DNA from: Holosporales bacterium
GTDB lineage: Bacteria > Pseudomonadota > Alphaproteobacteria > Holosporales > Holosporaceae
Length of the DNA stretch: 58,040 nt
NCBI GenBank assembly: GCA_947457385.1
Contig: CANGUX010000002.1
Coordinates: 1-58,040, forward strand
Direction of reading: 5' to 3'
Both the position numbers and the translations under genes were made by a program. Shown here in pieces: positions 20,985 to 42,988 of the stretch (positions are counted from its first letter, which is position 1; each line of letters starts with the position of its first letter). The notes beneath the pieces are model-generated. The model saw only the letters and a program-made list of their open reading frames with translations. It did not search any database and was not told the origin of the DNA.

Positions 20985-22457
20985 ATGACTTCTCCCATTT
21001 CCATTTTTTGGTTTAGACAAGATTTACGTCTTTCAGACAATCCTGGACTGACAGCAGCCTCCCAATTAGGCGCAATCCTTCCTATTTATATCTTGGATTC
21101 CTTAAGCGCTGCCCCCATTGCCCCCGCTGCTAGTAACCTCTATCTCCATCACAGCTTAGAAAAACTCCATCAGTCCCTCGATAATCATTTGAATATTTAT
21201 AAGGGAGATCCCAAAGAAATCCTTTTTCACCTAATAAAAACGTATCCCATTGAAAAAATACTTTGGAATCGTTGTTACGAACCTTGGCATCTATCCAAGG
21301 ATGCGCTGCTTGAAAAAAACCTCCGTGATTGGAACGTACCCTATGAGATTTTTAATGGGTCCTATTTATGGACACCAGAGGAAGTCAAAAAAGAAGACGG
21401 TACCTATTACAAAGTGTTTGGTGCTTATAAAAAAAAGGCACGCCTCATCTGCCCTAAAGCCCCTTTGCCATGTCCCAAAAACCTCGTGTTCATAAAAGAT
21501 TATAGCAACAAAACGACCCTTCATGATCTACGGTGTTTTCCAGGACATGCATGGCAACACCCTTTAAAAAAACACTGGGATTTTGGAGAAGAGGCAGCCC
21601 ATAAAAAGCTAGAAACTTTTTTGCATCACAGCCTATCAGGCTATAAAAAAGGTCGCAATTATCCAGCAGAAAAGCACACTTCTAATCTGTCTGTCCATCT
21701 CCACTTCGGAGAACTATCCCCCCATCAAGTCTGGAAAGCTGTTCATGACATAGGGCCATTGCATGCCGCTGAAGAAGATATCGACTGTTTTTTAAGTGAA
21801 ATGATTTGGAGAGAATTTTCCTGTTATCTCATGGTGCATTGCAAGAAAATGGCTTCAGATCCTTTCCAAGCCAAATTTAATGCCTTTCCTTGGGCGTACA
21901 ATCATACTTTTTTTAAGGCCTGGAAAACGGGAAGGACGGGGTATCCTTTTATTGATGCAGGGATGCGTGAACTTTGGCAAACAGGCTATATGCATAACCG
22001 CCTTCGCATGATTGTCGCTTCGTTCTTGGTAAAAAATTTAATGGTGCATTGGCATGATGGACGAGATTGGTTTTGGGATTGTCTTATGGATGCAGACTTT
22101 GCAAATAACACTGTAAGCTGGCAATGGGTCGCTGGGTGTGGCACAGATGCAGCACCTTTTTTTAGACTGTTCAATCCCATTACACAAGGGGAAACCTATG
22201 ATCCTTATGGACAATACACTAAAAAGTTTATACCTGAACTGGAGAAATTGCCCATCAAATATCTCTTTAAACCATGGGAAGCCCCAGAAAAAGTCTTACA
22301 AGATGCTGGTATTATCCTGGGCGTAACATACCCAAATCCCATTGTAGATTTTAAAACATCCAGGATCAAAGCGTTATCTGCCTACAAAGCCCTAGAACTT
22401 CCTTCTCATGATCCTCAATTTCATGCACAGCAATCTATTTTTTCGGATAAAGAATAA
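20985..22457 (+). CDS. phrB: Deoxyribodipyrimidine photolyase (cryptochrome/photolyase family)
   Basis: Light-dependent repair enzyme for pyrimidine dimers, 490 residues. The N-terminal antenna-binding alpha/beta domain begins FWFRQDLRLSDNPGL. The C-terminal FAD domain is well preserved (EMIWREFSCYLM, then GRTGYPFIDAGMRELWQTGYMHNR, then DADFANNTVSWQWVAGCGTDA, then FNPITQGETYDP), typical of class I CPD photolyases. It starts 18 bases after devC and ends the operon. Retention of a photolyase implies that the organism or its host is exposed to light at some stage. Confidence 0.95.
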   Translation: MTSPISIFWFRQDLRLSDNPGLTAASQLGAILPIYILDSLSAAPIAPAASNLYLHHSLEKLHQSLDNHLNIYKGDPKEILFHLIKTYPIEKILWNRCYEPWHLSKDALLEKNLRDWNVPYEIFNGSYLWTPEEVKKEDGTYYKVFGAYKKKARLICPKAPLPCPKNLVFIKDYSNKTTLHDLRCFPGHAWQHPLKKHWDFGEEAAHKKLETFLHHSLSGYKKGRNYPAEKHTSNLSVHLHFGELSPHQVWKAVHDIGPLHAAEEDIDCFLSEMIWREFSCYLMVHCKKMASDPFQAKFNAFPWAYNHTFFKAWKTGRTGYPFIDAGMRELWQTGYMHNRLRMIVASFLVKNLMVHWHDGRDWFWDCLMDADFANNTVSWQWVAGCGTDAAPFFRLFNPITQGETYDPYGQYTKKFIPELEKLPIKYLFKPWEAPEKVLQDAGIILGVTYPNPIVDFKTSRIKALSAYKALELPSHDPQFHAQQSIFSDKE

Positions 22458-37741: not shown

Positions 37742-39682
37742 TCAAGCCGGCATTGTGGCACGTTGGGCTTGTAGTTTTGTTTTTAAGCGTGCTGCTTTTT
37801 CAAAGTCAAGGGCTTCTGCAGCCAACAGCATGTCACGCTCTAATTCAGCCAGAGAAAGGGTTGCTTCTTCCCCATGCGCAGCTGGAACGCGTTCTACATC
37901 TTCCATCAACGCTCTTTTAACCGCCGCTGGCACAATCCCATGGAATAGGTTATGTGCATGCTGCAGCGTCCGTCTTCGATCCGTTTCTTCTAACGCAGCT
38001 TGGATGGATTTAGTGTATCGATCGCCATATAAAATCACACGTCCTTTAGGATGACGAGACGCACGTCCCATGGTTTGAATCAAGGAAGTTTGAGAGCGCA
38101 AATAGCCCTCTTTATCGGCATCGAGAATCGCGACCAATTGGCATTCTGGAATATCTAACCCCTCACGCAACAAGTTAATGCCAATAAGGATATCAAAGAG
38201 GCCTTTTCTTAGATCAGCGATCAGCTGAATGCGTTCGAGTGTATCTACATCTGAATGCATATAGCGTGCCTTAAAGCCGGCTTCGATCAGGTAATCTGAT
38301 AAATGTTCTGCCATTTTCTTGGTCAAGGTGGTAATGAGAATCCGTCCGCCTTCTGCAATGACCGTGGTCAGTTCTCCCATCAAATGATCGATTTGACCTT
38401 CGCTGGGATGCATGGTGCACTGGGGATCTAGCAAGCCTGTAGGACGAATCAACTGTTCCACCACTTCCCCCTTTACTTGGTCAAGTTCCCACGATCCTGG
38501 TGTGGCCGAAACAAACACGGTCATGGGGCGCATGGCATCCCACTCCTCAAAAGTAAGGGGGCGATTATCGCGACAAGAGGGCAACCTAAAGCCATAGTCA
38601 TACAACGTCTTTTTTCGTGAAGCATCGCCAATAGACATCCCTTTCACCTGAGGCACAGAAACATGGCTTTCATCCACCATTAAAAGGGTCTCTGGCGGAA
38701 GATAACTGAACAAGGTGGGAGGAGGCTCTCCTTCTGCGCGTCCCGTGAGGTGCCGAGAATAATTTTCGATACCCGAACAGATTCCAGTGGCCGCTAACTG
38801 TTCCAAATCAAAGGTGACACGTTCCTCCAAGCGTTGCGCTTCTAATAACCGCTGTTCAGTCCTCAGTTCTATAAGCCGATGGGCCAGTTCTTTTCGTATC
38901 TTAAGCAGGGCTTGTTGCAGCGTAGGCCCGGGGGTCACATAATGACTGTTGGGATAAATTCTTACGCTGGCAAGTGTGGTGATGCGTTTTCCCGTAAGCG
39001 CCTCGATCTCATAGAGTTCATCAAGCTCTGAACCAAAAAAAGAAAAACGCCAAGCACGATCTTCATAATGCGCAGGAAAAAGATCAATGCGATCGCCTCG
39101 AACACGAAAGGTGCCACGTTTGAATTCTATATCGTTGCGCTTATACTGCAGGCCAGAAAGAGCCCGCAAAAATTCAGACCAAACCATCTTTTGGCCTACT
39201 TTGGCGGTGATAGAAAGCTCTTGATAGGTATCAATGTCACCTAATCCATAAATACAGGAAACACTGGCCACCACAATAACATCCTTGCGTTCTAACAAGG
39301 ATCGCGTAGCACTGTGTCGCATGCGTTCGATTTGCTCGTTAATGGTAGCTTCTTTTTCGATATGGGTATTGCTGGCAGGCATGTAAGCTTCGGGCCTGTA
39401 GTAATCATAATAAGAAACAAAATATTCCACAGCATTATGCGGGAAAAATCCTTTCATTTCTCCATAAATTTGAGCTGCAAGCGTTTTGTTAGGTGCCAAA
39501 ATAAGCGCAGGACGTTGCATTTGTGCAATAACATTGGCCATGGTAAATGTCTTTCCTGAGCCTGTTACCCCCAGCAAGACTTGATCTCGTTTGCCGCAAT
39601 GAATGCCCTGGACCAACGCATCTATGGCATGAGGTTGCGCCCCTGCAGGCGCAAAAGGAGAGACCAAATGAAAAGGACCCAC
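37742..39682 (-). CDS. uvrB: Excinuclease ABC subunit B
   Basis: Damage-verifying helicase of nucleotide excision repair, 646 residues. Walker A (LLGVTGSGKTFTMANV), the beta-hairpin region (YYDYYRPEAYMPASNTHIEK), DESHVSVPQ, helicase motifs V and VI (NLLREGLDIPECQLVAILDADK, QTMGRASRHPKGRVILYGD) and a C-terminal UVR domain (LAELERDMLLAAEALDFEKA) are all visible. The start is GTG. The N-terminus is slightly shorter than usual. It ends 17 bases from the convergent trkA. uvrC is also in this window, at 45.7 kb, but is not co-transcribed. Confidence 0.98.
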   Translation of the reverse strand: MGPFHLVSPFAPAGAQPHAIDALVQGIHCGKRDQVLLGVTGSGKTFTMANVIAQMQRPALILAPNKTLAAQIYGEMKGFFPHNAVEYFVSYYDYYRPEAYMPASNTHIEKEATINEQIERMRHSATRSLLERKDVIVVASVSCIYGLGDIDTYQELSITAKVGQKMVWSEFLRALSGLQYKRNDIEFKRGTFRVRGDRIDLFPAHYEDRAWRFSFFGSELDELYEIEALTGKRITTLASVRIYPNSHYVTPGPTLQQALLKIRKELAHRLIELRTEQRLLEAQRLEERVTFDLEQLAATGICSGIENYSRHLTGRAEGEPPPTLFSYLPPETLLMVDESHVSVPQVKGMSIGDASRKKTLYDYGFRLPSCRDNRPLTFEEWDAMRPMTVFVSATPGSWELDQVKGEVVEQLIRPTGLLDPQCTMHPSEGQIDHLMGELTTVIAEGGRILITTLTKKMAEHLSDYLIEAGFKARYMHSDVDTLERIQLIADLRKGLFDILIGINLLREGLDIPECQLVAILDADKEGYLRSQTSLIQTMGRASRHPKGRVILYGDRYTKSIQAALEETDRRRTLQHAHNLFHGIVPAAVKRALMEDVERVPAAHGEEATLSLAELERDMLLAAEALDFEKAARLKTKLQAQRATMPA

Positions 39683-39810: not shown

Positions 39811-41865
39811 ATGTGTAACAGATTGTTTTGGAAAGAATTGTTAGGGGGAATAGGGGTCCTTGGCGTGCTTTGGGCATTTCCTCTTTATGCCAGCTGGACG
39901 CCTTACATAGAGGGGCTCGTGGGCTTTGAAGGGGTAGCAGAAACAGTCAAAGGGAAATCTGTCACATCTTCTTTGTCTTTTTTTGTGCCAACGTCATCTT
40001 TTACATTTTTCAATTTAAATACGTTGCGTAATAAAGGGCAAAAAGGGCAAAAAATAGGATCCTTTTTAGGGGTAAATGTTGGCATAGATTATGAGACCGC
40101 AAAAGGATGGATTTGGGGAATCTATGGTGGTGGAGGCTATTCAGGGGCGCAAAGATGCGCTTCCTATGACAGCTTTATTTTTACAAAAGGCAATGAAAAG
40201 GGCAAGCCCAATGCCGCGCCTGTTCCTTTAAAAGATTATGCCTATATCATATTAGGAGGCCGTTTTGGAAAAAGATTAGGAAAATGGACGCCCTACATTG
40301 CATTGGGCCTTACAGGACACTATACCCAAAGAAGCATTTGCCACACCACAAAAGGGGGCCCCATCATGGGGGCGGATGCAGAGTCAGAGGCCAGAAGAAA
40401 TGCAGGAGCTGGTCCCATAGAAGCCTACGCTGATGGAGAAGAAGTTGAAGACCAAACCAGGCATTCTAGCTCTCAATCTTTGCTTTCCGACTCTTTTTTG
40501 CCTTTCAGTTCCGATGGATCGCGTTGTCCTCGGGGCTCTACGTCCAAGCATCCTTCTTCTAGCTCTCAACCTTTGCTTTCCGACTCTTTTTTGCCCTTCA
40601 GTTCCGATGGTTCTGAGAATGCAATCATAGCGATATCGCATCCTTCTGATTCTTTTGGATCTTCTGGCCTATCTTGTTTGTTGGATGTCTCTCATTCAAA
40701 CCTAAATTCAAGCAATACATCTATCCAATCCATTAGTGAGATGCAAAATATTTTGCATGTGCTGAATCCTTCCTGGCCCATGCAGGCAGATCTTCCAGAA
40801 AATGAAAATGCTATTCATGCTCTTCGTCCAGAACCCCTTAATCTCAAGCGCCCTTTGCAACAAGATTTCCAGGCATCGGCTCCATGTTCCCCAATGCTCC
40901 AAGAGGCTCGTACGCCTTCCTGGCCCATGCAGGCAGATCTTCCAGAAAATGAAAATGTTATTCATGCTCTTCGTCCAGAACCCCTCAATATCAAGCCCCC
41001 TTTGCAACAAGGTTTCCAGGCATCGGCTCCATGTCCCCCAATGCTCCAAGAGGCTCGTACGCCTTCCTGGCCCATGCAGACAGATCTGTTAGAGGATGGA
41101 CATGTTGCTGATGCTCTTCGTCCAGAACCCCTCAATCCCCCGCTACAAAACTCTTCTCACCCTACATCTATTTCTCAACAAAGATTCAGCGCTTCTTCTG
41201 ATGCACGCTCTGTTCATGCAGCACAACGTCTACCCCAATCTCCTCGTCAATCCACGTCTCAGATATTGTCGATAGTTTCTGCCCCTTCTATGCTTCATTT
41301 TGAGGCTATCTCTCCCATTCATTCATCCGATTCTTCTTCAGCATTCAAGATGGACTCTGTGGATCTTGAATGGGATAAAGAAAGCATGCATGATAACGAC
41401 TATGAAACAGCCAACGGATTGAAGTCGCTTTCTGAAGACGCCATTTCTTTACAGAAAAAAGACGTTCAAAGGGTGCAAAAAAACACAAAAGGAGGAAAAA
41501 AAGGAGGGGATGCAAGCACTGATTTCGTCGCAGCGGACGAAGGAACGCGTACTAAATCAAGCTTCATCCCCTGTATTTTAAGCAAAATAGGATTAGACTA
41601 TCGTTTGTCTACGCGGGTTACACTTGGGTTTGCAGTCGCTCTGGAAATTGGGAAAAAGACAACAACCCCTTTTCGTAAACTTAAAACCGTTTCCATGGCG
41701 ACCGCTTTGGGGGGGGCAGGTTACCAAGGGGGTGCCCCAGGCGCATCCTTTACAGGACCTACAACCACACCTGATCCTCATGCACACGTCAAATGGAGAG
41801 CTTTGTTTTCCAGTTTGATGTTTTCTGTCAAGTATACTTTCCCTCCCTTTCGACAAGGTCTTTGA
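39811..41865 (+). CDS. Predicted outer-membrane barrel with long repeat-bearing insert
   Basis: Unrecognised 684-residue protein. A signal peptide (LLGGIGVLGVLWAFPLYA) precedes residues 28-190, which look like small outer-membrane barrel strands (WTPYIEGLVGFEGV, FLGVNVGIDYETAKGWIWGI, YIILGGRFGKRLGKWTPYIAL). Residues about 190-590 form a low-complexity Ser/Pro/Gln-rich insert with two tandem repeat families, and 590-684 again look like strands (KIGLDYRLSTRVTLGFAVAL, ending SSLMFSVKYTF). I infer one barrel with a giant loop, probably surface-exposed. The canonical terminal Phe is followed by PPFRQGL, and the gene overlaps convergent serC by 38 bases. Function is unknown; adhesion or host interaction is a guess. 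Confidence 0.75.
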   Translation: MCNRLFWKELLGGIGVLGVLWAFPLYASWTPYIEGLVGFEGVAETVKGKSVTSSLSFFVPTSSFTFFNLNTLRNKGQKGQKIGSFLGVNVGIDYETAKGWIWGIYGGGGYSGAQRCASYDSFIFTKGNEKGKPNAAPVPLKDYAYIILGGRFGKRLGKWTPYIALGLTGHYTQRSICHTTKGGPIMGADAESEARRNAGAGPIEAYADGEEVEDQTRHSSSQSLLSDSFLPFSSDGSRCPRGSTSKHPSSSSQPLLSDSFLPFSSDGSENAIIAISHPSDSFGSSGLSCLLDVSHSNLNSSNTSIQSISEMQNILHVLNPSWPMQADLPENENAIHALRPEPLNLKRPLQQDFQASAPCSPMLQEARTPSWPMQADLPENENVIHALRPEPLNIKPPLQQGFQASAPCPPMLQEARTPSWPMQTDLLEDGHVADALRPEPLNPPLQNSSHPTSISQQRFSASSDARSVHAAQRLPQSPRQSTSQILSIVSAPSMLHFEAISPIHSSDSSSAFKMDSVDLEWDKESMHDNDYETANGLKSLSEDAISLQKKDVQRVQKNTKGGKKGGDASTDFVAADEGTRTKSSFIPCILSKIGLDYRLSTRVTLGFAVALEIGKKTTTPFRKLKTVSMATALGGAGYQGGAPGASFTGPTTTPDPHAHVKWRALFSSLMFSVKYTFPPFRQGL
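40465..40617 (+). repeat. Two copies of a 93-bp repeat inside the barrel gene
   Basis: The segment encoding SSSQSLLSDSFLPFSSDGS begins at about 40465 and again at 40558, 93 bases (31 codons) apart. The second copy differs by only a few bases (Q-S to Q-P). Only about 57 bases of each unit are closely conserved. Confidence 0.85.
40768..41140 (+). repeat. Two and a half copies of a 147-bp repeat inside the barrel gene
   Basis: Units start at 40768, 40915 and 41062, an exact 147-base (49-codon) period. Each begins with codons for PSWPMQADLPENENAIHALR and continues RPEPLN. The first two units are nearly identical; the third diverges after about 20 codons and stops half-way. The codon-exact period keeps the frame. 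Confidence 0.92.
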
Positions 41866-42988
41866 TCCTTTTTAATAAACTCAGAAGGTCGTCTTCTTCC
41901 ATCGATGGACCGCACCAAATCCGAAAAGAGGGAACAGAACAGCGGGCATGATTGACTAGATCAAATCCATCGTTCCCAAAACATGCTTGCATGTGATAGA
42001 ACCAATCCCATTGCTGAGCACGAGAAAGAGCAGAAAATTTAGAAGAAGTAAGGCTTAAACAAACAGGACCATAAGCTCGATAGGCGGGCCAAGGCACCAG
42101 AAAATCAATCCATGGGTGCTCATGACACCAAGCTTCTACGACAGAAAAATTTCTTTTGGTGCGATGCAAAGCTGCTTTTAACCCACCACGCTGTCTATAA
42201 ATATCAAGGAGATGGAGTCCTTCTTCAATGCAGAGCATGGAAGGGGTGTTGATTAATTTCCCATCTTCTAGATCTTTTACATGATCTTTGATGCGAAAAA
42301 TACGTGGCATGGGCCAACGAGGCCGTTGAACGGCAAGACGTTCTTGTGCACGAGGACCAAGCACCAAAATGCCTGTAGAAGCTTCTCCTGCCAAACCCTT
42401 TTGCCAAGAAAAGGCGGTAACGTCTAAATAATCCCATGGCAAGGCGGTGGTAAAGACGGCAGAAGTGGCATCACAGAGGACAAGGCTTCCTGTGTTTGCC
42501 CTATGACGCGCCATTAACCAACCGTGATCTTCCCCAACCCAAATGCCATGGGTTGTGCCACACCAGGTCAAAACCAGGTCATGTTCAGGGCAATGCGCCT
42601 GAAATCCATGAGGAGGGGGCGATGTTAAGCTGCGATAGGAGAGCTGCAATTCTTGGCGAATTTCAGAAGCCCACAGTTCACTAAAAACATCCCACTCTAG
42701 CACATCGATTCCACGATGCGGGTCTAAAAAATTCCATAAGGCCATGCCCATGGCACCACTGGCAGAAGCTGGGGTAAAAAAAAGCACATGAGAATCCGGA
42801 ATCTCTAACAGAGCCTTTAACTGGGAAGAAAGGGATTGAATTTTTGCCAACCCCTCAGCAGAGCGATGGGAACGCCCCATTAAAAAGGATCCCAAAGCCT
42901 GAAGTGACCACTCTTTTGGTTTGACACACGGGCCCGAAGAAAAAAAAGGGCGCGTGTTTTTAGGATGCAGCACGATACGAAGATACAA
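41828..42988 (-). CDS. serC: Phosphoserine aminotransferase
   Basis: PLP enzyme converting phosphohydroxypyruvate and glutamate to phosphoserine (serine, and in some species vitamin B6, biosynthesis); 386 residues. It resembles the alphaproteobacterial SerC subfamily: FSSGPCVKPKEWSLQALGS, GRSHRSAEGLAKI, then CDATSAVFTTALPWDYLDV with the PLP Lys in FSWQKGLAGEA, and NTPSMLCIEEGLHLL. serA, its usual partner in alphaproteobacteria, is not adjacent. The 3' end overlaps the barrel gene by 38 bases in convergent orientation. Confidence 0.96.
   Translation of the reverse strand: MYLRIVLHPKNTRPFFSSGPCVKPKEWSLQALGSFLMGRSHRSAEGLAKIQSLSSQLKALLEIPDSHVLFFTPASASGAMGMALWNFLDPHRGIDVLEWDVFSELWASEIRQELQLSYRSLTSPPPHGFQAHCPEHDLVLTWCGTTHGIWVGEDHGWLMARHRANTGSLVLCDATSAVFTTALPWDYLDVTAFSWQKGLAGEASTGILVLGPRAQERLAVQRPRWPMPRIFRIKDHVKDLEDGKLINTPSMLCIEEGLHLLDIYRQRGGLKAALHRTKRNFSVVEAWCHEHPWIDFLVPWPAYRAYGPVCLSLTSSKFSALSRAQQWDWFYHMQACFGNDGFDLVNHARCSVPSFRIWCGPSMEEDDLLSLLKRIKDLVEREGKYT

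Follow-up and report, generated by a model that had tools for sequence, protein, structure and literature searches.

The protein encoded by a 684-codon open reading frame (39811-41865, plus strand, ATG start, in frame throughout) is probably an eight-stranded OmpA/WSP-like barrel whose loop 3 (L3) is giant and largely unstructured, serving surface display or host contact or shielding. Positions are those of the window, i.e. the whole stretch of 58 040 nucleotides that was analysed. The anatomy, a split barrel with an insert in L3, is well supported at the level of sequence comparison (table 1), and eight is the number of strands that we infer for the fold. On one side, the frame is flanked by a divergent uvrB gene (37742-39682, minus strand); on the other, by a convergent aminotransferase-like gene (41828-42988, minus strand; no Pfam match at E 1e-4), the 3' end of which overlaps that of our frame by 38 bp (41828-41865). 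Elsewhere in the window, a complete DNA photolyase gene was found (20985-22457, plus strand; Pfam DNA_photolyase and FAD_binding_7), which was unexpected in a genome of 778 kb belonging to an apparently intracellular cell that lives away from light.

Table 1. Features of the 684-codon reading frame and their positions in the window (all on the forward strand).
Feature	Coordinates	Strand	Basis
Sec-type signal peptide, residues 1-27 (MCNRLFWKELLGGIGVLGVLWAFPLYA)	39811..39891	+	read from sequence, no dedicated predictor score
N-terminal barrel half, residues 28-176 (strands 1-5, loops L1 and L2)	39892..40338	+	paralogue and family profile matches
Insert in loop L3 (strands 5-6), residues ~177-581, ~405 aa	40339..41553	+	short L3 in relatives; frame and codon usage
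Repeat family 1: 57-nt core, two copies, spacing 93 nt (31 codons)	40464..40613	+	
Repeat family 2: 147-nt (49-codon) unit, 2.5 copies	40768..41137	+	
C-terminal barrel half, residues 582-680 (strands 6 and 7, enlarged L4, strand 8, SLMFSVKYTF)	41554..41850	+	family-model and paralogue matches
Enlarged loop L4, about residues 617-661, Gly-rich start TALGGAGYQGG	41660..41793	+	read from alignment

The first-pass annotation had proposed that the two ends of this protein are parts of a single barrel, and both do appear to belong to one small barrel, as each matches its own half of one contiguous family. Indeed, the N-terminal halves of the protein and of a paralogue (described below), taken as a pair, matched the N-terminal half of this family with an hhalign probability of 97% (E 1e-10), and the C-terminal half (residues 582-679) scored 27.5 bits against the C-terminal half of the insert-less family model, where 500 shuffles gave a maximum of 10.0. 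The C-terminal match of the paralogue to the same model was weak (15.5 bits). When the full protein was given to AlphaFold as a single sequence, the model was uninformative and contained no barrel (pLDDT 34; it was excluded from every fold search), a result in line with the absence of any barrel, or with a fused or chimeric frame whose ends derive from unrelated proteins or whose insert is an assembly artefact. We disfavour this explanation and hold it for very improbable: the two halves match the family in the same order, the paralogue repeats the architecture on another contig, and the frame is open over all junctions with native codon usage.

With the full protein, neither Pfam nor NCBIfam gave a match above cut-off, and no family member exceeds the Pfam cut-off, the insert-less ones displaying weak, sub-threshold similarity to OMP_b-brl_2, OmpA_membrane and OMP_b-brl. 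No match to Surface_Ag_2 (Msp4-type, WSP) was obtained for the protein or for the relatives scanned, and no PDB relative was found, matches to an insecticidal protein at E 0.03 being judged due to chance. Searches of Pfam, NCBIfam and PDB likewise revealed no known enzyme domain in the middle of the protein. The two outcomes that the earlier annotation had set against its own proposal, namely ends that do not form one barrel and a middle recognizable as a known enzyme domain, were thus not what we observed.

The family itself was recovered with a profile of the N-terminal halves, which retrieved insert-less barrels 341 and 317 aa in length (L092/P0001 and L093/P0002, related to each other at E 2e-19) in two members of the bacterial family. 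With a profile built from these two proteins and a 327-aa protein of the genome under study, insert-less relatives were detected in nine of the ten genomes of the order, and a later profile gave a weak match in the tenth. Among the candidates rejected along the way, a match to GlmM in one genome (G001) was spurious, and a 1923-aa frame surrounding a family match in another (G022) proved to be a masked run of N and not a relative with a giant insert. Three insert-less members are present in the genome under study, including the 327-aa protein (L094; L005:3433-4413, minus strand), which lies about 750 bp from the paralogue, in divergent orientation, with a dihydrofolate-reductase-like gene in between.

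Fifteen insert-less members were aligned and read as eight-stranded barrels. They share with the 684-codon protein the order of the N- and C-terminal halves, the strand pattern and the C-terminal KYxF strand, but contain no repeats and have an L3 (between strands 5 and 6) of 10-29 residues, versus about 405 here; the 684-codon protein is therefore best regarded as a variant within this insert-less family. In a further member (L106:1228-2358, at C3:15512-16591 of the genome under study), L4 reaches about 56 residues, compared with 15-35 in the others, and hence loop 4 also varies.

Short turns join strands 2-3, 4-5 and 6-7, and long connections join strands 1-2, 3-4, 5-6 and 7-8. In barrels of this type, both termini reside in the periplasm. 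With such a topology, the long connection between strands 5 and 6, and with it the insert, would be extracellular, so that the exposed loop anticipated by the first-pass annotation would correspond to L3.

The insert is a coding sequence. Of the six frames, only its own is free of stops (7-21 in each of the others), and this frame also has the best codon score; synonymous codon preference is 0.10 in the insert versus 0.11 and 0.09 in the barrel parts, and GC3 is 0.36 versus 0.40 and 0.39. It is rich in Ser (17%), Pro (9%) and Gln (7%), net acidic, and lies at the disorder boundary by its charge-hydropathy value; alternating strand-like segments cover 1.9% of it versus 21% of the barrel parts (about 11 times rarer). 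Over positions 40200-41700, GC skew passes from positive in the N-terminal half to strongly negative (-0.22 to -0.29) inside the insert. No match to the insert was found in 289 genomes of the class, nor in plasmids, phages, viral contigs or PDB. A foreign origin was rejected, given the native codon preference and GC3 and the lack of any match in plasmids, phages or viral contigs.

Two tandem repeat families had been reported in this region, and both are present in frame, all spacings being multiples of three. The 49-codon family was recovered as described, in 2.5 copies (unit PSWPMQADLPENENxIHALRPEPLNxK...), the first two being 96% identical (blastn self-match E 2e-90). For the 31-codon family, the spacing holds, but the repeat does not extend over the full 31 codons: what recurs is a core of 19 codons (SSSQxLLSDSFLPFSSDGS), present twice (40464-40520 and 40557-40613) at 95% identity (self-match E 7e-20). 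With self-matches at these E values, the repeats are not due to chance. Variation of loop length through recombination, as was also put forward, is only suggested by the recent repeat copies.

Neutral expansion offers an alternative explanation, which we regard as unlikely: in a small genome, slippage and unequal exchange could have lengthened a low-complexity sequence within a loop that tolerates it, the barrel being redundant and the insert having no specific function. Copies 1 and 2 of the 49-codon repeat differ by six codons, five of which change the amino acid, and thus give no sign of constraint; the absence of homologues of the insert (class genomes, plasmids, phages and PDB) and the presence of insert-less members in the same genome point the same way. 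Against neutral growth, about 405 codons remain open in a 778-kb genome, codon preference is equal in insert and barrel, and two independent paralogues have inserts of approximately 330-400 aa at the same loop, whereas none of the relatives has one.

The second of these paralogues emerged from a search of the genome itself (37 contigs totalling 778 kb, completeness 98%), which located one paralogue at a terminus of contig C11 (L005:5163-7035) and a fragment at a terminus of contig C36 (L006:4462-4819). As about 150 identical bases are common to the two termini, these pieces form one gene of 693 aa, the assembly break falling inside its Gly-rich L4. Its N-terminal half is 36% identical to that of the 684-codon protein over 160 aa, and its C-terminal half 32-39%. 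At the same loop L3, the paralogue contains an insert of a quite different type, composed of 47% glycine with diverged GGx repeats (GGxGG). The two inserts are unrelated, with no DNA similarity beyond 14-16 bp and none at the protein level, and neither occurs a second time in the genome. An inverted origin, in which the Gly-rich insert read backwards would yield a Pro-rich sequence, was rejected, DNA similarity on either strand not exceeding 14-16 bp. The sense strand of the paralogue insert is G-rich, unlike the Ser/Pro/Gln insert with its negative GC skew.

Both proteins have a Gly-rich GGPxxG before the insert and GG..DAST after it, and in both the start of L4 is Gly-rich (TALGGAGYQGG in the 684-codon protein, TALGGAGGPGG in the paralogue). 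Their common ancestor may thus already have possessed a Gly-rich extension, which the 684-codon copy would have replaced, or overgrown, with repeat-bearing sequence. The unrelated insert of the sister gene, in the position of the first, is suggestive of a platform at the cell surface on which displays can be exchanged.

Under the favoured reading, a barrel with a giant displayed loop, the protein would use the Sec pathway for export and the Bam complex for folding, its two halves closing into one barrel with L3 displayed outside the cell. The loop, presumably disordered, would most likely contact host material or shield the cell, as its putative function, and the 147-bp repeats would let it grow or shrink in frame. 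The barrel would then provide the anchorage, and rapid evolution would be concentrated in the loop, since the sister gene, with the same barrel, shows a quite different glycine-rich loop at this position. A more ambitious and rather doubtful proposal, entertained tentatively, is that of a lineage-specific surface-display system in which one small barrel chassis receives interchangeable giant loops (a repeat-bearing Ser/Pro/Gln one whose length changes by recombination and a glycine-rich one) with which an intracellular bacterium binds or evades its host.

An intracellular lifestyle is suggested by the detection of a TLC-family ADP/ATP translocase in all ten genomes of the order (0.8-1.7 Mb) and in none of 14 controls. 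Translocases of this type are typical of intracellular energy parasites. The bacterium thus seems to be host-dependent. No 16S gene was found in its assembly, and a scan with UvrB matched only generic alphaproteobacteria, at about 60% identity. The genome sizes and the TLC translocase of the order resemble those of Holosporales (PMC9992710).

Several known systems may be compared with this architecture. In the Wolbachia WSP, an eight-stranded barrel, the four extracellular loops carry regions that are hypervariable and recombine (PMC2843615). Together with the P28/Msp2/Opa barrels, WSP would resemble the 684-codon protein in its eight strands, in its occurrence in an intracellular alphaproteobacterium and in its variable extracellular loops. 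However, variation in WSP consists of the shuffling of loop sequences, whereas the protein described here carries a 400-residue insert in a single loop and has no Pfam match to the WSP family. For the paralogue insert only, the glycine-rich domains of the PE_PGRS33 type (PMC7830552) provide a likeness by description, with no homology claimed: they also expose long GGx repeats at the cell surface, but are mycobacterial and anchored by a PE domain.

The eight-stranded barrel of the Helicobacter Hop/Hom proteins (BabA, HomA, HomB) is interrupted by a large exposed domain, an arrangement for which the name type Vf has been proposed (PMC8714817, PMC4643811). The small barrel divided by a large surface-exposed domain would be common to both systems. 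This likeness (PMC8714817) would favour a processed passenger, with the barrel delivering an extracellular domain that folds or is cleaved, along the lines suggested for type Vf autotransporters, over a flexible display loop; we consider such a passenger improbable, as the insert is of low complexity, bears repeats and has no known domain. The Hop/Hom domain, moreover, is folded and follows strand 1, whereas the alignment positions the insert after strand 5 and before strand 6, not between strands 1 and 2, where the type Vf definition places the exposed domain. No Pfam or NCBIfam match indicated homology to Helicobacter outer-membrane proteins. Classical autotransporters (type Va, with a C-terminal 12-strand Autotransporter domain and an N-terminal passenger) differ by the internal position of our insert, and the best Autotransporter Pfam match (E 0.91) was far below cut-off. 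By analogy, the 684-codon protein may work like WSP and Hop/Hom while being a member of neither.

The first-pass annotation considered such a device 'not obviously described', which requires qualification: eight-stranded barrels with variable exposed loops (WSP, Opa, Msp2) or split by a large exposed domain (BabA, HomA/B) have been described, but they belong to other families, and the large domain, where present, separates strands 1 and 2. The sister protein with a different insert is new here and unreported. The small barrels of intracellular alphaproteobacteria are known to vary in their loops, but the changes occur inside short ones; here, one loop has undergone two expansions on the same anchor, each with its own unrelated sequence and each reaching some 14- to 40-fold the length seen in relatives. 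If these loops are exposed and polymorphic, they would be direct candidates for host-specificity factors in an intracellular group with few known surface proteins, as well as a natural example of loop insertion tolerated by a barrel.
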